From Acidibrevibacterium fodinaquatile (GTDB taxonomy: Bacteria > Pseudomonadota > Alphaproteobacteria > Acetobacterales > Acetobacteraceae): a stretch of DNA of 64,000 bases. Positions 48,045-58,814 of this stretch are shown one piece after another. The stretch is taken from the NCBI RefSeq assembly GCF_003352165.1, contig NZ_CP029176.1, positions 1,054,001 through 1,118,000 of the forward strand. Direction: 5' to 3'. The notes below the pieces were generated by a model. The model did not search any database. It had not been told where the DNA came from and saw only the letters and a list, made by a program, of their open reading frames with translations. Positions within the stretch are counted from its first letter, which is position 1, and the number at the start of each line of letters is the position of its first letter. The position numbers and the translations under genes were made by a program.

Positions 48045-49018
48045 CACCGGCGGCATTCGAGGTCTTTGCGAGCCTGCTCAAATCCCGCTCCGGTCTCGCC
48101 ATCGGGCCGGACAAAACCTATCTCCTGGAAACCCGCCTCGCGCCGCTGCTGCGCGCGCACAATCTCGTCGATCTCGAGGCGTTGGCGCTCACTCTGCGCA
48201 GCGGTGGCCATGCCGCGCTCGCCGCCGCGGTGGTCGAGGCGATGACCACCAACGAGACGTTCTTTTTCCGCGATGACAAGCCGTTTGCGCATTTTCGCAA
48301 CCAGGTTCTGCCGCAGCTTGTTTCATCCCGTCCGCCCGGCGCCGGGCTTCGCGTATGGTCGGCAGCGGCGTCGACCGGGCAGGAAGCCTATTCGCTGGCA
48401 ATGATCGCGGCCGAGAGCCAGGCGCTGCTCGGCGGGCGGCGGGTCGAGATTATCGGCACCGATATCGCGCGCGAGCCGCTCGAGCGCGCGCGCGCCGGCC
48501 TATACACCCAGTTCGAGGTCCAGCGCGGCGTGCCCATGACCGCTCTGGTCAAGCATTTCCGCAAGGAGCCGGAGGGCTGGCGGATCGTCGAGCCGCTGCG
48601 CGCCATGGTCAGCTTCCGGGAGTGGAATTTGCTCGCCGATCTCCGCCCGCTCGGCCAGTTCGACACCATTTTTTGCCGCAATGTGCTGATCTATTTCGAC
48701 CAGCCGACCAAGAGCCGGGTTTTGGAGGCGATCGCCGAGCGGCTGGCGCCGGATGGCGTGCTCTATCTCGGTGGCGCGGAGACCATTCTCGGCCTGACCG
48801 AGCGCCTCGTCGCCGCGCCCGGCGGCCATGGCGTCTATAGGCGCGCCATGGCCGGCGCCTCTCCTGCCGCCTCGGCTCCCGCCGGCGCAGCCTCGCCGCC
48901 GGGCAAGACTTTGGGGGCGATCGCCTCGGCGATGAAGCCGATCAACGCCTCGGCCGCCGCCGTCACCGACAGCCGTCCGGTATCGAGCCTGAGATCAGGC
49001 TTGGCGGGCGCTTCATAA
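48041..49018 (+). CDS. cheR: Chemotaxis protein methyltransferase CheR
   Basis: The 325-residue S-adenosylmethionine-dependent enzyme methylates receptor glutamates. The N-terminal helical domain ends with [13 protein letters not shown]; the catalytic domain has [26 protein letters not shown] and [12 protein letters not shown]. The normal domain ends at VYRRAM (~residue 268). The remaining ~55 residues are an Ala/Pro/Ser-rich tail encoded antisense to the end of cysNC, 184 bases of overlap. It is the last gene of the che operon. Confidence 0.94.
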
Positions 49019-50781
49019 CTGCCATCGATGCCGGTGAAGCCGGGCAAAACGCCGGCGCGGGCCTTGGCATAGAGCCCTTTCGGGTCGCGCGCCTCGCAGG
49101 TCGCGGCGTCGGCGGCGATGTGGATTTCGTGGAACAGATCGCCGCCGATCCGCCGCGCCTCGGCGCGCATCGCCGCTTGCGGTGAGATCAACGCAACGAT
49201 GACGACGAGCCCGGCATCGGCCATCAGCCGCGCGACCTCGGCGGTGCGGCGGACATTCTCCTCGCGCTCGCGCGGCGAGAAGCCGAGATCGGCGTTGAGG
49301 CCGGTGCGCAGCGTGTCGCCATCGAGCACGACGGCATCGATACCGTCGGCGAAAAGCCGCTGCTCGGCCTGGCGGGCAAGCGTCGATTTGCCGGCGCCAG
49401 GCAAGCCGGTGAGCCAGAACACAGCGCCGCGATAGCCTTTCGCCGCCGCGCGCGCGGCATGCGAGACCGCGGCGTCGAGCGGGAAGACGTGCTCGCGCCC
49501 GGCGGCGATGCCAAGGATGGGCGCGCCGCCGACGATGTGCTGATGCCCGTCGACCAGAACGCCGCGCCCGCCGCCCTCGGGGCGGAAGGGATCAAACAGC
49601 ACCTCCTCGGCCGCCGTCAGGGTGATGTCGGCGAAGCCCTCCGGCGGCACTTCGGTGCCGGCCTCGGCCGAGAGATCATCGATCCGCACCACCCGCTCGA
49701 TGGCGCTGACCCGGACCTTGTATTCGGCGGTCGCGAGGCGGAGCTGAAAGCTCTCGCCCAAGCGCAACGGCTCTTGGCGCAGCCAGAAAATCCGTGTCGC
49801 CAGGCGCCGGGCGCGCAGCGGGGCAGCGTTCGGGTGATAGAGCAGATCGCCCCGCGCGACCACCACCTCCGGCGCCAGCTCCAGTGCAACCGATTGGCCG
49901 GCGCCGGCGCTTTGCGCTGGCGGCGTCGGCCAGCCGGCGAGTGCTGTGATCGTCGCGCGATGGCCGGCGGCGCCGATCGCGACGGTATCGCCGGCGGCGA
50001 GCCGGCCGCTATCGATGCGCCCGACGACGAAACGCCGCTCCCCCTGGCGATAGACGTCCTGGACCGAGAGGCGGAGCGGCCCCGCGGTCGCGGGCAGCGG
50101 GCGTGGCAGGGCGGCCAGCGCCTCGGTCAAGGTCGGGCCGCGATACCAGGCGAGATGCGGCGAAGGCGCTGCGATATTGTCGCCATGACGCGCCGAGACC
50201 GGGATGACGGCGCGCGGCGTGATGTCGAGCGGGGTGAGGAGGGCGGTGAGCTGGCTCGCGACGGCGTCGATGCGGGTGCGGTCGAAATCGAGCAGGTCGG
50301 CCTTGTTCAAGACCACGATCACGTCTGCGACACCGATCAGGCGGAGCAGCATGGCGTGGCGCCGCGTCTGGTCGCGCACCCCCTCGGTCACGTCGATGAC
50401 GAGAACGGCAGCGCTGGCGCCGGCGGCGCCGGTGATCATGTTGCGCAGGAATTGGCGATGGCCAGGGGCATCGACGATGACGAAGCCACGCCCGCCGAGG
50501 GTGAAGGGCAGCCGCGTCGCATCGATGGTGACGCCTTGGTCGCGTTCGGCCTGAAGGGAATCGAGCAAGAACGACCATTCGACGCCGAGCCCGCGCTTTT
50601 CGGATGATAGCCGGGCGGCGTCGAATTTGCCGGCGAGGAGATTATCGGTGTCGTGCAAAAGCCGGCCGATCAACGTCGATTTGCCGTGATCGACATGGCC
50701 GACGATGACGATCGGGGTCGGCATTTCGCCAGCAAATGGCGGGTTGGTGACGGCCGGGGCGGGATCGAATTCGGTGTTCAT
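48835..50781 (-). CDS. cysNC: Sulfate adenylyltransferase subunit 1 / APS kinase fusion
   Basis: The 648-residue protein is an EF-Tu-like GTPase that drives sulfate adenylation, fused to adenylylsulfate kinase (NodQ type). GTPase motifs: GHVDHGKST (28-36), DAPGH, and NKAD. Kinase P-loop: GLPGAGKST (459-467) with [16 protein letters not shown] and FTGIDGSYE. Beyond ~625 is an Ala/Glu/Pro-rich tail that overlaps cheR. ATG 50781 has AAGGAG at good spacing; the start at 50802 would overlap cysD. It is the last gene of cysH-cysD-cysNC. Confidence 0.95.
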
Positions 50782-50804
50782 GGAGGGCTCCTTGCCGTGC
50801 ACGC

Positions 50805-51611
50805 TCAGAGATACCCGGCGACGCGCAGCCGCTCGAAGGCGTCCTCTGATTCATGGTCCATGGCGCGGCCGGCGCGCTCGGGCTCACGCGTCGCATGAAG
50901 CTCGGCGATGATGTCCTCGACCGTGCCGGCCGTGCTCGCGACCGGGAAGGTGATGTCCTGGTCGCCGAGCGAGCGATAGCGTTTGCCGTCACGAGAAAAA
51001 TAGAGATCGACGACGGGGATCTTCTCACGCGCGATGTAGCGCCAGATATCGATCTCGCGCCAGGCGAGCAGGGGATGGACGCGAACATGGGCGCCATCCT
51101 CGAGCGGGGTTACGAACTGGTCCCAGAATTCCGGCGGCTGGTTGCGGACATCCCAGCGGTGGCTCGCGCCACGCGGGCTGAAGACGCGCTCCTTGGCCCG
51201 GGTTGCCTGCTCGTCGCGGCGGATGCCGGCGATCACGCCGGCGAAGCGGTGGCGCTCGATGAGGGCGGCGAGGCCCGCCGTCTTGCGCGCCGCCGAGCGC
51301 GCCGCCGGCGGCAGGCTGGGATCGATCTCCTCCACCGGCGGGCAGGTGCCGATGATCAGATCGAGCCCCCATTCTTGGGCGTAGCGTTCGCGGAAGGCGT
51401 ACATTTCGGGGAATTTCTTGCCGGTATCGACATGCACCACCGGAAACGGCACTTGGCCGAGAAAGGCCTTGCGCGCCAGCCAGACGCAGACATTGGAGTC
51501 CTTGCCGAGCGACCACAGCATGGCGAGCGGCTTGAGGCGCTGATAGGCCTCGCGCAGGATAAAGATGCTTTGGCTCTCGAGATGGTCGAGATCGGTCATA
51601 TCCGGGGTCAT
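50805..51611 (-). CDS. cysD: Sulfate adenylyltransferase subunit 2
   Basis: The 268-residue subunit carries the ATP-PPi-loop ([20 protein letters not shown]) that joins sulfate and ATP to [38 protein letters not shown] and [16 protein letters not shown] are conserved CysD segments. The ATG at 51611 forms ATGA with the cysH stop. It acts with the CysN part of the next gene. Confidence 0.95.
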
Positions 51612-52378
51612 TCGGGGTGGTGTCTCTCGCTGGAAGGGCTCATCGACGACGCCGCGGCCCGATCGGATAGCGGGGCGCCGGGGACGTGTATACCGCATTC
51701 GGTCTTAATTTGTCCTGACCAACGCCCGGCCCGGGGATCCTCGTCGGGCGCGGTCGCGCGCGTGCAGGGGGCGCAGCCGATCGAGCGATATTGGCGCGCG
51801 GCCAGCGGATGCGGGGGCAGGGCGCGGGCGGTGAATTCGGCGGCGATGCGGGCGGCGTCCCAGTCGGCGAGGGGGTTGAGTTTGACCTTGCCCGCCGCGA
51901 TCTCGATGAACGGCAGGCGCGCGCGGGTTGCCGCCTGAAAACGCTTGCGGCCATTGACCCAGGCATCGAACGGCGCCAACGCGGCGGCGAGGGGTGCGAC
52001 CTTGCGCCGGGCGCAGCAGGCATCGGGATCGAAATGCCAAAGCGTTCCATCCGGATCGTCGCGCGCCAATGTCTCCCGATCTGGGGAAATATCGCGGACG
52101 TCGCGCAAGCCGAGATGGGCCGCAAGCGCGCGGCGATAGGCGAGGGTTGCGGGGAAATGCTGGCCGGTTTCGAGGAACAGGACCGGGGTTGCCGGATCGA
52201 TTTCGGCGACGAGGGCAAGCAGCACGGCGGATTCGGCGCCAAAGGACGAGACCACGGCGATGCGGCCCACAAAAGCGACGGTGAGCGCGTGGCGCAGCAG
52301 GGCAATCCCGTCGAGCGGGGTATCGCGCGCGGCCGCGACGGGCAGCGGGTGAGGCGGGGTGGGGAGAAACGGGGGCAT
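51608..52378 (-). CDS. cysH: Adenylylsulfate (APS) reductase, iron-sulfur type
   Basis: The 256-residue thioredoxin-dependent reductase makes sulfite. SSFGAESAVLL is the PP-loop. The pair Cys121-Cys122 (DACCARRK) and Cys202/Cys205 (GCAPCTR) are the four ligands of the [4Fe-4S] cluster that marks APS reductases and is absent in the PAPS-specific enterobacterial enzyme. The catalytic Cys228 is in KTECGIH. The N-terminus is uncertain: ATG 52378 lacks a good ribosome site. It is first of the cys operon; the 120 bases upstream are AT-rich. Confidence 0.92.
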   Translation of the reverse strand: MPPFLPTPPHPLPVAAARDTPLDGIALLRHALTVAFVGRIAVVSSFGAESAVLLALVAEIDPATPVLFLETGQHFPATLAYRRALAAHLGLRDVRDISPDRETLARDDPDGTLWHFDPDACCARRKVAPLAAALAPFDAWVNGRKRFQAATRARLPFIEIAAGKVKLNPLADWDAARIAAEFTARALPPHPLAARQYRSIGCAPCTRATAPDEDPRAGRWSGQIKTECGIHVPGAPLSDRAAASSMSPSSERHHPE

Positions 52379-52435
52379 GGCGGTGGCTCGGCGACAGGGA
52401 GGCCGGCATTTAGCCCCAATTTCACTAACGCACAA

Positions 52436-52498
52436 GGTGAAATTTTATAATATATCAAATTAGTGTATGTATTTATAAATAACAGAAATTCATCGCTA
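52436..52498 (-). promoter_or_regulatory. AT-rich leader region of the cys operon
   Basis: About 60 bases between the end of pfkB and the start of cysH are almost only A and T (for example TTTGATATATTATAAAATT on minus), in sharp contrast to the coding DNA around. It likely holds the cys promoter; I could not fit a convincing -35/-10 pair or a named operator. Confidence 0.4.
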
Positions 52499-53455
52499 TT
52501 AAGCCGATCCTGCGGCGCTTTTGGTGCGTAAGGCGGCATAGCGCCGTTCGACGGCGCTGCGCGTGACGCGCGCGGTGCCGATCCCGGCGATCGCCACGGC
52601 GCCGGCGGCAAGCCCCCAATCGAGCGCATCCTCGGGCGCAGCCCCGCGCGCCAAGGCGAGCACCATGGCGGCGAGAAACGCATCGCCGGCGCCCACCGCG
52701 CTGTGGACCTCGGCCGGCGGCGCTTGGCGGCGGAGGACGCCGGCTTCACTCGCCAGGATCGCGCCAGCGTCACCGAGCGTCACCACCACCATCCGCGCCG
52801 CGCCATTGCGCACCAGGGCGAGCGCTTCCTTCTCCTGCGCCGCCGGATCGGGAAGGGTGCGGCCGACCAGCGTTTCGAGTTCGCGCAGGCTCGGCTTCAA
52901 AAGCGTGATGCCATGCCCGAGCGCGGCGCGCAGAGCCTCGCCGGAGGTATCCAGCACGAAAGCCTGGCCGCGCGCCGCCGCGAGACGCGCGGCTTCGGCA
53001 TAAATCCCGACCGGCACCGCGCGCGGCAGGCTGCCGCTCGCGACCACATAGTGCTCTGATGCCGCCGGGAGAGCGGCGAGGGCGGCATGCCACTCGGCGT
53101 CCGACAGCGTCGGCCCTTCCGGCACGAAGCGATATTCGCGCCCGCTGGTCTCTTCGCGGAAGGTAAACGAAACCCGCGTCCGCCCGGCGATCGGCACGCG
53201 ATGGCGCGGCACCCCGGCCTCCTCGAGCAATTCGTCGAGAAACCGCCCGGTCACGTCGCCCGCGGTAAAGATCGCCAGCGTCTCGCCGCCGAGCGCATGC
53301 ACGACGCGCGCGACATTGACGCCGCCGCCACCGGGATCGACATGCTCGTCATGGGTGCGGATTTTGTGGGTCGCGGCGATCACCGGGGCGGTGGAGACGA
53401 AATCGACGGCTGGATTGAGGGTCCACGTGACGATGCGGGGTGGCGTCAGGGGCAT
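52499..53455 (-). CDS. pfkB: PfkB-family phosphofructokinase (hexose kinase)
   Basis: The 318-residue ribokinase-family sugar kinase begins TWTLNPAVDF, has DPGGGGVNVARVVHALGG for sugar binding, and carries the catalytic VGAGDAFLAAM with the anion-hole GAGD and base Asp. It is close to the 1-phosphofructokinase/E. coli PfkB group, so the substrate is fructose 6-phosphate or a related phosphosugar. It lies 9 bases after the BON gene and is the last of ppsA-BON-pfkB. Confidence 0.88.
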   Translation of the reverse strand: MPLTPPRIVTWTLNPAVDFVSTAPVIAATHKIRTHDEHVDPGGGGVNVARVVHALGGETLAIFTAGDVTGRFLDELLEEAGVPRHRVPIAGRTRVSFTFREETSGREYRFVPEGPTLSDAEWHAALAALPAASEHYVVASGSLPRAVPVGIYAEAARLAAARGQAFVLDTSGEALRAALGHGITLLKPSLRELETLVGRTLPDPAAQEKEALALVRNGAARMVVVTLGDAGAILASEAGVLRRQAPPAEVHSAVGAGDAFLAAMVLALARGAAPEDALDWGLAAGAVAIAGIGTARVTRSAVERRYAALRTKSAAGSA

Positions 53456-53464
53456 GGCATCGGC

Positions 53465-54127
53465 TCAGGGCACGACCCGCATCCGGTCGATCACATTTTC
53501 GACCCCGGTGGCCGACCAGGCGGCATTTTCGGCGATGCGACGGGCAGCGAGGCTCCGCACCTCGCCGGCGAGCGTGACTTCGCCACCCTGGGTCACGACC
53601 GTGATGCGCGAGGCGTCGATCTCGGCGTGGCGGGCCAGCGCCCGACGCACGGCGTCGTTGATATTGGAGGCGCCTCGGGGCGGGCGGACGACGATCTCGT
53701 TCTTGATCGCAACCACGCCGGCGAGCGGCTGCACCCGCGCCTCGACATCCTCTTTCTGGTATCGCCAATCGACCGCGCCGATCAGGGTCACGACCCCGGC
53801 CTCGACCTTGACCTGGATCCGCCCCTCGGGAATCCGCGCGTCCCAGCGCAGGATGCTCGCGATGCGGTGGGCGATTTCCTCGTCGGAATGGCGGGCCTCG
53901 GGGTTGAGGCGAACCTCGATGTCCTGGGCGAGGCCGAGCACCCCGCGGACATGCCAGACCGCGCGCTCGGCGGCTTTTTTCTCGGCGTAGCTCGCGACGA
54001 AGCCGCCCAAGGTGACGATGCCGTCACGGACATGGACGGTGATGTTCGTTGCATCGACGTGCGGCGCCCATTCCAGCTCTTCCCGCACGAGACCGTCGAG
54101 AACGAGGTCATCCCTATGATCGGACAT
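53465..54127 (-). CDS. Triple BON-domain protein
   Basis: The 220-residue protein has three BON domains (~10-78, 80-150, 152-218), each with the I.V.V.dG.VtL.G.v..y.ek..Ae..v..v.GV pattern. No signal peptide is evident, so it is probably cytoplasmic, unlike the secreted OsmY type. BON domains are thought to bind phospholipid or other surfaces and are common in stress-induced proteins. ATG 54127 follows GGAG; a GTG at 54148 is the alternative. It sits between ppsA (17 bases) and pfkB (9 bases) in one operon. Confidence 0.88.
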   Translation of the reverse strand: MSDHRDDLVLDGLVREELEWAPHVDATNITVHVRDGIVTLGGFVASYAEKKAAERAVWHVRGVLGLAQDIEVRLNPEARHSDEEIAHRIASILRWDARIPEGRIQVKVEAGVVTLIGAVDWRYQKEDVEARVQPLAGVVAIKNEIVVRPPRGASNINDAVRRALARHAEIDASRITVVTQGGEVTLAGEVRSLAARRIAENAAWSATGVENVIDRMRVVP

Positions 54128-54144
54128 GGTCGGAAACTCCACAA

Positions 54145-56556
54145 TCACGTTGCGCTGGCGGTTTGTTCGGCATCATGGACGATGGCGAGGGTGCGGAGCA
54201 GGCTCGCCGGATTGACGCTGATCGAGCCGATGCCGAGGCGGGCGAGAAACGCGGCGATTTCGGGGTAATTCGCCGGCGCCTCGCCGCAGATGCCAACCTT
54301 GCGGTGATTGCGCGCAGCGCCGGTGACGGCAAGGCGCAGCATCTCCAGCATGCCGGGATCGCGCTCGTCGAAATCGAAGGCGACGATGTCGGAGTCGCGA
54401 TCGACGCCGAGCGTGAGCTGGGTCAGATCGTTCGAGCCGATCGAGAATCCATCAAAGACTTCAGAAAACGCGTCGATCTGGATGACGTTGTTCGGGATCT
54501 CGCACATGACATAGATTTCGAGCCCGTCCTCGCCGCGCCGCAGGCCGTGGCGCGCCATTTCGGCGAGCACGGTTTTCGCCTCGTCGACGCGGCGGCAAAA
54601 CGGCACCATCACGAGCAGATTGGTGAGACCCATCTCGCGGCGGACGCGCAGCAAGGCCGCGCATTCGAGGGCGAAGCCTTCGGCATAGGCCGGATGCGCA
54701 TAGCGCGCGGCCCCACGGAAGCCGAGCATGGGATTGGCCTCTTTGGGCTCGAAGGCGCTGCCGCCGAGCAGGGCCGCGTATTCATTGCTCTTGAAATCGG
54801 AGAGCCGGACGATCACCGGCCGGGGATGAAACGCCGCCGCGATGGTCCCGATCCCCTCGGCCAGCTCGCGGATGAAGAAGGCTTGCGGCGAGGGATCGTT
54901 GCGGCTCAGTTCGCTGATGCGGCTTCGTTCGGCGTCGCTGACCTTCTCCGGATGCACGAGCGCCATCGGATGGACGCCGATATGCTCGTTGATGATGAAT
55001 TCCATGCGCGCGAGCCCAACCCCGGCGCTCGGCAGCATCGCCGTCTTAATGGCGAGATCGGGATTGCCGAGATTGACCATGATCGGCGTTTTCGGAAGCG
55101 GCAGCGCCGCGGCATCGACATGGCTGACCTCGAAGGCGAGCGCGCCGGCATAGACCGTGCCGACCTCGCCATCGGCGCAGGAGACGGTGACGGTATCGCC
55201 GGTATGGAGCGCCGCCGTCGCGACCCCGGCGCCGACCACCGCGGGGACGCCGAGTTCGCGCGCGACGATCGCGGCGTGGCAGGTGCGTCCGCCGTGATCG
55301 GTGACGATGGCGCCGGCGGTTTTCATCACCGGCTCCCAATCCGGGTTGGTCGCCGCGGCGACGAGAACTTCGCCCGGTCGGAAAATTTCCAGATCCTTGG
55401 CCGAGGTGACCACGCGGACAACGCCGGTTGCGATCTTCTCGCCGACCGCCCGCCCGGTGACCAAGACGGGGCCGCGCGTTTGCAGCGTATAGGTGTCGAG
55501 CCTCCCCGCCCTCTTGCGCGCGGCGACGGTCTCGGGGCGGGCCTGGACGATGAAGAGCGCGCCGCCTTCGCCATCCTTCGCCCACTCGATGTCCATCGGC
55601 TGGGGATGGCCGGCCTGAGCGGAATAATGCGCCTCGATGGCGAGCGCCGCGGCGGCGAGTGCGAGCACTTCCTCATCCTTGAGGCAAAAGCGCAGGCGTT
55701 TCGCGGCCTCGGTCGGCAGGTTCCGGGTCGTTGCGCCGAAATGGCCGGGGGCGAGCCCCATGGTGAGCTGCTTGCTGCCGAGCGTCCGGCGCAGCACGGC
55801 GCGATGCCCGGCGCGAAAACTCGGCTTGTGGACATAGAATTCGTCGGGATCGACGGCGCCTTGCACGACGTTTTCGCCAAGCCCGTAAGAGCCGGTGATG
55901 AACACCACGTCGCGAAAGCCGGATTCGGTGTCGAGCGTGAAGATCACGCCACTCGCGGCGGCATCGGCGCGGATCATTTTCATCACCCCGACCGAAAGCG
56001 CGACCTTGAAATGGTCGAAGCCGTTATTGACCCGATAGACGATGGCGCGATCGGTAAACAGGGAGGCGAAACAGCGGCGGCACGCCTCGAAGAGATCCTC
56101 CTCGCCGACGATGTTGAGGTAGCTCTCATGCTGGCCGGCGAAGCTGGCTTCGGGCAGATCCTCGGCGGTCGCGGAGCTGCGGACGGCGACCGCGACGTCC
56201 GGGCCGTATTCGCGCGCGAGTTCGGCATAAGCATTCGCGATGGCGGCGCGGAGGGTCGCGGTCCCGGTCGCCTCATAGACGATCCGGCGCGCCGCGGCGC
56301 CGGCCCGCGCGAGGGCGGCAATGTCGGTGATAGCGAGGCGATCGAGCACTGTGCGCAGCTTGGCCTCGGCGCCGGCGGCGGCGAGCGCCTCGCGATAGGC
56401 ATAGGCGGTGAGCGCGAAACCGTTCGGCACCCGCACCCCGGCGGTGCTGAGGCGGCTATACATTTCCCCGAGCGAGGCATTCTTGCCGCCGACCTCGGCG
56501 ACGTCGCTTGCGCGCAAATCGGCGAACCAGCGAACGAGCGGCGTGTTTTCGGACAT
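54145..56556 (-). CDS. ppsA: Phosphoenolpyruvate synthase
   Basis: The 803-residue enzyme converts pyruvate, ATP and water to phosphoenolpyruvate, AMP and phosphate. The N-terminal ATP-grasp domain shows VGGKNASLGEM, AVRSSATAEDLPEASFAGQ and GSYGLGENVVQG. The phospho-His domain has GGRTCHAAIVARELG (His427). The C-terminal PEP/pyruvate barrel has IGSNDLTQLTLGVDRDS and the Cys of VGICGEAP. ATG 56556 with GAGGGA fits the family; it is upstream of BON and pfkB. A perfect FNR-type box with a suitably spaced -10 lies upstream. Confidence 0.96.
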   Translation of the reverse strand: MSENTPLVRWFADLRASDVAEVGGKNASLGEMYSRLSTAGVRVPNGFALTAYAYREALAAAGAEAKLRTVLDRLAITDIAALARAGAAARRIVYEATGTATLRAAIANAYAELAREYGPDVAVAVRSSATAEDLPEASFAGQHESYLNIVGEEDLFEACRRCFASLFTDRAIVYRVNNGFDHFKVALSVGVMKMIRADAAASGVIFTLDTESGFRDVVFITGSYGLGENVVQGAVDPDEFYVHKPSFRAGHRAVLRRTLGSKQLTMGLAPGHFGATTRNLPTEAAKRLRFCLKDEEVLALAAAALAIEAHYSAQAGHPQPMDIEWAKDGEGGALFIVQARPETVAARKRAGRLDTYTLQTRGPVLVTGRAVGEKIATGVVRVVTSAKDLEIFRPGEVLVAAATNPDWEPVMKTAGAIVTDHGGRTCHAAIVARELGVPAVVGAGVATAALHTGDTVTVSCADGEVGTVYAGALAFEVSHVDAAALPLPKTPIMVNLGNPDLAIKTAMLPSAGVGLARMEFIINEHIGVHPMALVHPEKVSDAERSRISELSRNDPSPQAFFIRELAEGIGTIAAAFHPRPVIVRLSDFKSNEYAALLGGSAFEPKEANPMLGFRGAARYAHPAYAEGFALECAALLRVRREMGLTNLLVMVPFCRRVDEAKTVLAEMARHGLRRGEDGLEIYVMCEIPNNVIQIDAFSEVFDGFSIGSNDLTQLTLGVDRDSDIVAFDFDERDPGMLEMLRLAVTGAARNHRKVGICGEAPANYPEIAAFLARLGIGSISVNPASLLRTLAIVHDAEQTASAT

Positions 56557-56614
56557 GGTTCCCTCGCTTTCGCCCGATGGGGTGCGTTTCTTCGCGGCAT
56601 CGCCGGATTTTGGA

Positions 56615-56656
56615 AAAATAGCCAATGTTTGCAGGAAGATCGTTGATCTGCATCAA
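56615..56656 (-). promoter_or_regulatory. FNR/FixK-type box and -10 element of ppsA operon
   Basis: TTGATCTGCATCAA at 56643-56656 is a perfect TTGAT-N4-ATCAA half-site palindrome, the site for FNR, Anr and FixK regulators. On the minus strand a TATTTT hexamer lies 22 bases further (56615-56620), which puts the box near -41.5 relative to a start around 56608, the class II activator position. This predicts induction of ppsA-BON-pfkB at low oxygen. Confidence 0.7.
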
Positions 56657-56693
56657 GCCCGCGCGGCGGCGCCGCCGCTCGCTGCCGGTTCGA

Positions 56694-56722
56694 TTGACAA
56701 GCCCGGCGCTTTGGCCCTACTC
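56694..56722 (+). promoter_or_regulatory. Promoter of tRNA-Tyr
   Basis: TTGACA at 56694-56699, a 17-base spacer and CTACTC at 56717-56722 form a sigma-70 type promoter. The mature tRNA begins at 56742, ~20 bases after the -10. Confidence 0.55.
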
Positions 56723-56741
56723 GATCACCGCTGAAAGACCT

Positions 56742-56827
56742 GGAGGGGTGCCCGAGTGGCTAAAGGGGGCGGACTGTAAATCCGCTGGCGCACGCCTACG
56801 TTGGTTCGAATCCAACCCCCTCCACCA
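56742..56827 (+). tRNA. tRNA-Tyr (anticodon GTA)
   Basis: This 86-base class II tRNA pairs GGAGGGG with CCCCTCC in the acceptor stem. The D arm is GCCCGAGTGGC; the anticodon arm CGGACTGTAAATCCG gives GTA (Tyr). A long variable arm follows, then the T arm GTTGGTTCGAATCCAAC, discriminator A and encoded CCA (56825-56827). Confidence 0.97.
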
Positions 56828-56900
56828 TGTCTCCGCCGCAACCGGCGGTCGTCACGCGCCAGCAGTTCCGTTTGGCCGGAGAATGCTCTAAGGGCGGGGG

Positions 56901-58814
56901 ATGGCGGTGCGTAATCCTTCGCTGGTCCGGCTTTTGGTCAATGTCGTGCTCGATGGCGCGCTCGGCGCGCTTGCGGTGCCGCTCGCTTTCTGGCTCGCGC
57001 GCCCCGAGCAGCCACTGGCCTCCGGCTTCGCGATCGCGGCCGGCGCGATCGCGCTGATCGCCGGTGGGGTGCCGTTCGGCTTGGCGACGCAGTATTGGCG
57101 CTTTGCCGGCCTTGGCGATATGCGCGCGATCGCCGGCAGCGCGGTTCTCGGGGCCGGGCTTTATGCGCTGCTCTTCCTGGCCGCCGGCCTCGCGCTGCCG
57201 AGCGTGAGCTTCCCCGCCATTCACGCGCTGGCGCTCGCAACCCTGCTCGCCGTCCCCCGTCTTGCCTATCGTCTCTGGCGTGACCGCCGCGATGGCCGCG
57301 CCGGTGAGGCGGGTGATGCGGTGCCGATCCTTCTGGTCGGCGATGGCGAGGGGGCCGATCTCTTCCTCCGCGCGCTCGGGCGCGGGCGCGGCGCGCTTTA
57401 TCGGGTGCTCGGCCTGCTCGCGCCCTCGGCCCGCCAGACCGGGCGGCGGATCCAGGGGCAGCCGATCCTCGGCACCATCGCCGAGACCGAGCAGATTCTC
57501 GAAAAACTGGCTGCCGCCGAAACCCCGCCGCGCTTTCTCGTCGTCACCACCGATCTCCCGGGCGAGACCCTCGGCCATCTCCTCGAGTGTGCCGATCGCG
57601 CCGGGCTCGCGGTTCGCCGCGCCCCCGACCCCACCCGTCTCGCCGCCGCCTCGACAGCGCGCGCGCAAGCCGGGCTCGATCTCCGCCCCATCGCCATCGA
57701 GGATATTCTCAACAGAAAACAGGTGCCGCTTGATCGCGACGGCATGGCCCGGCTGATCGCCGGCCGCCGCGTGCTCATCACCGGCGCCGGCGGCAGCATC
57801 GGCGCCGAACTGTCGCGCCAGGTGGCGGGGTTCGGGCCGGCGGAAATCGCCCTCCTCGACAATGGCGAATATGCGCTTTGGCAGATCGATCTCGAACTCG
57901 CAACCGCGCATCCGACGCTCGCCCGCAGCACCCTGATCGCCGATATCCGCGACGCGGCGCGGCTTCGTGCCGTCTGCGAACGTTTCCGCCCCGACCTCGT
58001 TTTTCATGCCGCCGCCCTCAAGCATGTGCCGATGGTGGAAGCCAATCCGCTCGAGGGGCTGCTCAGCAACGCCGTCGGCACCCGCAACGTCGCCGATGCC
58101 GCGCGCGCCGCCGGGGCGACGGTGATGGTGCAGATCTCGACCGACAAGGCGGTCAACCCGACCAGCGTCATGGGCGCCGCAAAGCGGCTCGCCGAGATGT
58201 ATTGCCAGGCCCTCGATCTCGCCGGGCGCGAAAAAGCCGGCGGCCTGCGCTGCATCACCGTGCGTTTCGGCAATGTGCTCGGCAGCACCGGCTCGGTGGT
58301 GCCGCTGTTTCAGCGCCAGCTCGCCGCCGGTGGCCCGCTTACCGTGACCCACCCCGATATGCGGCGCTATTTCATGACCGTGCGCGAAGCGGTCGGGCTG
58401 GTATTGCAGGCTGCTGTCGTCGGCACCACCGCGCCGGAGCTGTCGGAAGCGGCGTTGGGCGGGATTTTCGTCCTCGACATGGGCGAGCCGGTGAAAATCG
58501 TCGATCTCGCCCGCCAAATGATCCGGCTTGCCGGGCTTCGCCCCGAGACCGATATCGCGATCCGTTTCACCGGCCTCCGCGCCGGCGAAAAACTGTTCGA
58601 GGAAATGTTTCATGGCCAGGAGCCCCCCAAACCGACGCGCTATCCCGGCCTTCTGATGGCAGCCCCCCGCACCGCCGATCTCGCTATCATCAGCCGCGCG
58701 CTTGACGAGCTTGCCGGCGCCTGTTCGCGCGGCCAGGAGGGGCAGGCGCTGGCGCTGCTTGCGCGCCTGGTGCCGGAATTCTCCCATAACGCCGCCGGCG
58801 CCGCGCGCGCCTGA
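56901..58814 (+). CDS. Membrane-anchored nucleotide-sugar 4,6-dehydratase (CapD/WbpM/PglF type)
   Basis: The 637-residue protein has four hydrophobic spans in the first ~125 residues, a degenerate Rossmann part at ~140-270 and a full short-chain dehydrogenase domain from ~285: ITGAGGSIGAELS for NAD, VFHAAALKHVPMVE, and STDKAVNPTSVMGAAKR, where Met replaces the usual catalytic Tyr as in WbpM-type C4/C6 dehydratases. RFGNVLGSTGSVVPLF and GLRAGEKLFEEM also fit. It makes a UDP-4-keto-6-deoxy sugar for surface glycans. It is followed after 14 bases by a DegT aminotransferase that can use this product. Confidence 0.93.
   Translation: MAVRNPSLVRLLVNVVLDGALGALAVPLAFWLARPEQPLASGFAIAAGAIALIAGGVPFGLATQYWRFAGLGDMRAIAGSAVLGAGLYALLFLAAGLALPSVSFPAIHALALATLLAVPRLAYRLWRDRRDGRAGEAGDAVPILLVGDGEGADLFLRALGRGRGALYRVLGLLAPSARQTGRRIQGQPILGTIAETEQILEKLAAAETPPRFLVVTTDLPGETLGHLLECADRAGLAVRRAPDPTRLAAASTARAQAGLDLRPIAIEDILNRKQVPLDRDGMARLIAGRRVLITGAGGSIGAELSRQVAGFGPAEIALLDNGEYALWQIDLELATAHPTLARSTLIADIRDAARLRAVCERFRPDLVFHAAALKHVPMVEANPLEGLLSNAVGTRNVADAARAAGATVMVQISTDKAVNPTSVMGAAKRLAEMYCQALDLAGREKAGGLRCITVRFGNVLGSTGSVVPLFQRQLAAGGPLTVTHPDMRRYFMTVREAVGLVLQAAVVGTTAPELSEAALGGIFVLDMGEPVKIVDLARQMIRLAGLRPETDIAIRFTGLRAGEKLFEEMFHGQEPPKPTRYPGLLMAAPRTADLAIISRALDELAGACSRGQEGQALALLARLVPEFSHNAAGAARA

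Follow-up and report, generated by a model that had tools for sequence, protein, structure and literature searches.

A predicted class II FNR/FixK-type promoter, conserved among family members, upstream of the ppsA-BON-pfkB genes of Acidibrevibacterium fodinaquatile

Genes and promoter elements at the ppsA locus

The stretch of A. fodinaquatile DNA analyzed here (64,000 nucleotides in full, hereafter the window) carries genes for a phosphoenolpyruvate (PEP) synthase, a protein with three BON domains, and a pfkB-family kinase (Table 1). Family searches agree with the names ppsA, BON, and pfkB that an earlier reading, made from the sequence alone (the sequence-only reading), had given to these genes. 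PpsA is matched over its full length by the PEP synthase models TIGR01418 (1049 bits, cut-off 739.75) and NF005057 (1103 bits, cut-off 598), and many homologs align from residue 1 of the called start. The start of the BON gene overlaps the stop of ppsA by 4 nt, and a further 9 nt precede pfkB, a layout that fits an operon and from which we infer that the three genes are co-transcribed. Sulfate-assimilation genes (cysH by family search, CysD- and CysN/C-like genes by eye) lie on the same strand at window positions 48835-52378, 120 bp downstream of pfkB, and read-through into them from the putative ppsA operon is possible.

Table 1. Positions in the window of the genes and of the predicted regulatory elements at the ppsA locus
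Feature	Positions	Strand	Remarks
ppsA, phosphoenolpyruvate synthase (pyruvate, water dikinase), 803 aa	54145..56556	-	TIGR01418
Three-BON-domain protein, GTG start	53465..54148	-	below OsmY cut-off
pfkB-family hexose-phosphate kinase	52499..53455	-	best solved relative E. coli 6-phosphofructokinase 2
tRNA-Tyr, divergent neighbor	56742..56827	+	probably no target of the box
Predicted FNR/FixK-type box TTGATCTGCATCAA	56643..56656	minus strand: TTGATGCAGATCAA	perfect TTGAT-N4-ATCAA palindrome
Putative -10 element TATTTT	56615..56620	-	read from sequence
Putative ribosome-binding site GAGGGA, before ppsA ATG	56560..56565	-	read from sequence

Upstream of ppsA lies the palindrome that the sequence-only reading had singled out as a full match to the FNR/Anr/FixK consensus, and the match is indeed complete. 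This predicted FNR/FixK-type binding site is centered 93.5 bp before the ppsA ATG, and a scan of the 64-kb window with one mismatch tolerated returned no second TTGAT-N4-ATCAA match. The box alone is weak evidence, because shuffled sequences yield an expectation of 0.84 matches with at most one mismatch per 64 kb; the case for it comes from its position, its conservation, and the genome-wide set of such sites. With regard to position, among the window's 45 called gene starts only that of ppsA has a zero-mismatch TTGAY-N4-RTCAA site 20-150 bp upstream. The sole other start with a one-mismatch site is that of the BON gene, whose upstream region falls within ppsA.

The same reading had placed a TATTTT -10 element at class II spacing, and the distance between this hexamer and the box is 32 bp from center to center. 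Such a distance fits a site at -41.5 combined with a -10 hexamer, so that, judged on sequence, the region has the two features of a class II FNR/CRP promoter. From this arrangement the ppsA transcript is predicted to start near position 56608, ~52 nt before the ATG at 56556. A simple scan of positions 51500-57200 found no sigma-70-like promoter, neither for ppsA nor for the divergent tRNA-Tyr gene, and a recognizable -35 element is absent from the proposed class II promoter. For ppsA, the lack of a sigma-70 match is expected because its promoter would be activator-dependent.

Conservation of the box at ppsA loci

Among 200 genomes of the same family, 40 (own included) have ppsA. We scanned 24 orthologous loci from 17 genera (at least 69% identity and upstream region present, own included), together with 13 distant ones (53-57% identity); two loci without their 5′ end (L128 of G113, and G182) and a distant one that runs off its contig (G188) were left out. 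The best TTGAY-N4-RTCAA site 20-150 bp before the start has no mismatch in 17 orthologs, one in four, two in one (G164), and three in two. Thus 21 of 24 orthologs, from 15 of 17 genera, keep a box with at most one mismatch before ppsA, many of the boxes being TTGAC-type. The two orthologs in which it is absent (three mismatches) belong to one genus, g43 (G174 and G123), though an FNR-type protein is present there. The corresponding frequency in same-size coding windows from 23 of the ortholog loci is 2 of 437, and that in mononucleotide shuffles of the upstream stretches is ~0.5%. By eye, the box persists while its flanks diverge beyond the closest genomes.

The spacing of the putative -10 element was assessed in 21 promoters anchored on a box with at most two mismatches (G065 set aside). 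The pattern xAxxxT occurs at the exact offset seen in the window in 12 of the 21 promoters (TAxxxT in 5), compared with 0-6 promoters at each of the 49 other offsets tried. In G065 the box is perfect, and the hexamer TAAGTT lies one base off this offset.

The distant ppsA group of the family had been intended as a negative control and proved to be mixed. All three loci of one genus (G127, G177, and G047) have FNR-like boxes, and TTGCGC-type half-sites occur at 5 of the other ten loci scanned. In a wider sample, TTGAT-N4-ATCAA with at most one mismatch was found between 400 bp upstream and 60 bp downstream of the start at 6 of the best 80 named ppsA loci (one of them without upstream sequence), and thus the box is no general feature of ppsA. 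A class-wide sample of 387 genomes gave 39 with ppsA. Of these 39 non-own rows, 35 were counted; G535, G473, and G304 were excluded for a cut 5′ end and G349, whose box has two mismatches, for an uncertain start. When up to one mismatch is tolerated in the 200 bp before the start, 6 of 15 class loci with at least 59% identity have a TTGAY-N4-RTCAA site and 8 of 15 have a TTGA-N6-TCAA site; for the more distant loci (20 from the class and 7 from the family) the counts are 6 of 27 and 10 of 27. The box therefore also occurs beyond the closer group, in which it is only a little more frequent. A locus of this sample, from the 8.0-Mb genome G500, carries TTGACCTGCCTCAA, which is the box printed for blr4655 of Bradyrhizobium diazoefficiens (PMC9104804).

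Other boxes and candidate regulators in the genome

The sequence-only reading had proposed two checks in the genome, one for further TTGAT-N4-ATCAA sites and one for an FNR or FixK gene, and both returned what was sought. The 4.04-Mb genome contains 15 perfect boxes, where a dinucleotide model of the window predicts ~1.8, and none with the pattern reversed; TTGAY-N4-RTCAA sites number 32, versus 5.4 expected and 2 reversed. Placed against the output of a simple gene caller, 10 of the 15 perfect boxes have a called gene starting no more than 200 bp downstream, 4 are elsewhere intergenic, and 1 is intragenic, and the 32 sites divide in the same way into 19, 5, and 8. The intragenic boxes are probably not functional.

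Perfect or near-perfect boxes stand, among others, before a COX1-type oxidase operon (cbb3 CcoN-like; a DsbD-like gene lies on the opposite flank of the box), a pair of CydDC-like ABC transporter genes, UbiT/UbiU-like SCP2-U32 genes, Host_attach followed by Hsp20 genes, and a PhaC (PHA synthase) gene, wherein the names cbb3, CydDC, and UbiT/UbiU are our reading of sequences and domains. Glycogen synthase and glycosyl hydrolase 15 genes are also preceded by boxes, and two boxes 19 bp apart (C1:191730 and 191749; L135) lie between an acetate kinase gene and a CBS-BON gene. Some further boxes stand before genes that have no obvious connection to oxygen, and xAxxxT stands at the class II offset in only 6 of the 27 box-gene pairs of this genome, ppsA included.

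Two of these loci have additional features. The genes after the CBS-BON gene resemble, by eye, an HlyD/ABC export system. The box TTGATCTAGATCAA (C1:2097224; L144) is symmetric even through its spacer, and has a gene of unassigned function on one side and, on the other, SCP2 and U32 genes resembling those for oxygen-independent ubiquinone synthesis.

Three proteins of the genome score above the Pfam HTH_Crp_2 cut-off, each with an E-x-x-S-R recognition helix. One is a Fe-S FNR-type protein (C1:2496418-2497152) with CKSCWARRFSFC (CxxCx7C) near its N-terminus and a further cysteine that aligns with a cysteine of solved FNR. Another is a FixK-type protein (C1:2369125-2369841) that is without the CxxCx7C motif and whose best solved match is FixK2 (4i2o, E 4e-40). 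Neither passes an NCBIfam equivalog cut-off. Either of the two, or both, is a candidate for the regulator acting at ppsA.

At least one CRP/FNR match is present in each of the 27 family genomes tested. G137, of the same genus, has the FNR type (84% identity) and no FixK ortholog was found in it; G185, a congener, has the FixK type (77%) and no Fe-S FNR was found in it. Both keep a perfect ppsA box, and retention of the site seems compatible with either type of protein. When the best match of each genome was examined, seven genomes whose ppsA box has one mismatch or none (G185, G147, G194, G094, G017, G082, and G091) showed no CxxCx7C protein; most of them are drafts, and G065 lay outside this search.

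The FNR-type protein (L151 and L159) is no more than ~38% identical to the best matches in family genomes other than G137, among those tested, and a replacement or horizontal gain of its gene is possible. The FixK-like gene, within the stretch C1:2366760-2370306 (L150), is flanked on one side by a small gene without a Pfam match that looks receiver-like by eye, and on the other by an AAA_33/zeta-toxin-like kinase gene, followed by a universal stress protein gene.

Proposed control of ppsA-BON-pfkB, its alternatives, and known systems

On the sequence evidence, a conserved class II FNR/FixK-type promoter before ppsA-BON-pfkB is very likely, and the kind of control is one already known. We hold it to be highly probable that this promoter is activated at low oxygen. 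An active FNR/FixK-type dimer would then occupy the palindrome and contact RNA polymerase from a box at about -41.5, with TATTTT as the -10 element. The outcome would be the switching on of a single transcript for PEP synthase, the BON-domain protein, and the PfkB-type kinase. The sequence-only reading had remarked that such control would place the operon in a hypoxia regulon. Comparative footprinting, the conserved distance to the -10 element, and the kinds of genes found behind other boxes lend good support to both the class II mechanism and membership in a low-oxygen regulon, whereas the reason which that reading gave for interest does not stand in view of the published work discussed below.

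The palindrome could instead be a chance match, with ppsA transcribed from another promoter, and the near-unit expectation for one-mismatch sites in 64 kb would allow this. We rejected this explanation as very improbable given a box in 21 of 24 orthologs and a conserved distance to the -10 element; the scan described above also offers no sigma-70-like site from which ppsA might otherwise be transcribed. Even less credible is control of the divergent tRNA-Tyr gene (or of the gene after it) rather than of ppsA. The palindrome is symmetric and centered ~92 bp from the tRNA, for which the scan likewise detected no promoter. However, just 3 of the 24 family loci (L105-L107) have tRNA-Tyr beside ppsA (flanks of at most 1500 bases, some cut by contig ends), and therefore the box tracks ppsA and not the tRNA. 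The -10 spacing is likewise conserved on the ppsA side, and tRNA-Tyr was rejected as the target.

Binding by a different CRP/FNR member that answers to another signal, such as nitric oxide or redox state, is also unlikely, albeit less so; the operon would then not be strictly part of an oxygen regulon. DNR and NnrR proteins share the FNR/FixK site, and three proteins with the fitting recognition helix are available in this genome. Against this, boxes precede the cbb3-like oxidase, CydDC-like, and UbiT/UbiU-like genes, which make up a low-oxygen set, and Bradyrhizobium PpsA responds to microoxia (PMC6515984).

If activation by an FNR/FixK-type protein at low oxygen is accepted, its metabolic meaning depends on PfkB. 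A profile search found no PF00365 (PfkA/PPi-type) phosphofructokinase in the genome, and the operon PfkB has no strong counterpart (30% identity for the next match), which makes it the sole recognizable phosphofructokinase candidate. Its closest solved structure is E. coli PFK-2, but it scores 213 bits against a cut-off of 353 in the NCBIfam 6-phosphofructokinase II model (PRK10294), and passes only the hexose kinase subfamily TIGR03168 among the models listed (261, cut-off 216). PfkB is therefore described here as a pfkB-family hexose-phosphate kinase, with 6-phosphofructokinase as a candidate activity. The genome also encodes one pyruvate kinase and a second PPDK_N protein. We reasoned that if PfkB were a 6-phosphofructokinase, then low oxygen would open the EMP route, because no PF00365 enzyme is present and PfkB has no strong counterpart. 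It would also permit PEP/pyruvate exchange by PpsA, possibly run toward ATP. That the box serves in this lineage as an oxygen gate on upper glycolysis is a tentative proposal, and we consider it rather unlikely.

Under this proposal, the very ability of these bacteria to run upper glycolysis may depend on oxygen being low. More broadly, ppsA (with PfkB close by) is a known low-oxygen target in Bradyrhizobium, and the comparative evidence for adding another alphaproteobacterial family, the second, is strong; the 32 candidate sites and two candidate regulators render low-oxygen control directly testable. Literature searches directed at this family or a genus of it showed no report on ppsA control there. 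GoxR is a Gluconobacter regulator. The mycobacterial DosR hypoxia regulon also groups a pfkB gene with universal stress proteins, but both the regulator and the DNA site differ from those found here.

FnrN/FixK regulons of Alphaproteobacteria have the same type of site, with cbb3 oxidase among their targets (PMC4999443). The main text of that study contains neither "phosphoenolpyruvate" nor "pps" in a word search, and reports only FnrN in Rhodospirillales, whereas the present genome also encodes a FixK-like protein without the cysteines.

The closest parallel is the FixK2 system of B. diazoefficiens. The sequence-only reading did not know oxygen control of PEP synthase as established in an alphaproteobacterium; such control, with PfkB also induced, is established and in print (PMC9104804, PMC6515984). 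There, ppsA (blr4655) is a FixK2 target with TTGACCTGCCTCAA at -47, is expressed at a lower level in a fixK2 deletion strain at 0.5% oxygen, and was validated by in vitro transcription (PMC9104804); it is also called FixK2-regulated elsewhere (PMC10888616, PMC6201568). Among microoxia-induced proteins are PpsA (log2 4.3) and the 1-phosphofructokinase-family kinase blr4659 (log2 5.2), both unmarked in the FixK2-target column of that source (PMC6515984). A phaR mutant has more PfkB blr4659, and the EMP route was earlier regarded as inactive (PMC10888616). In contrast to that organism, for which ppsA is listed as a single gene, A. fodinaquatile has BON and pfkB in a probable operon with ppsA. Its box has the perfect TTGAT form unlike TTGACCTGCCTCAA, and a Fe-S FNR-type protein is present in addition. 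The FixK2-dependent list of B. diazoefficiens includes host-attachment, Hsp20, CBS, and PhaC2 genes, and similar genes are boxed here. In both organisms, a PEP synthase gene lies behind an FNR/FixK palindrome (PMC9104804).
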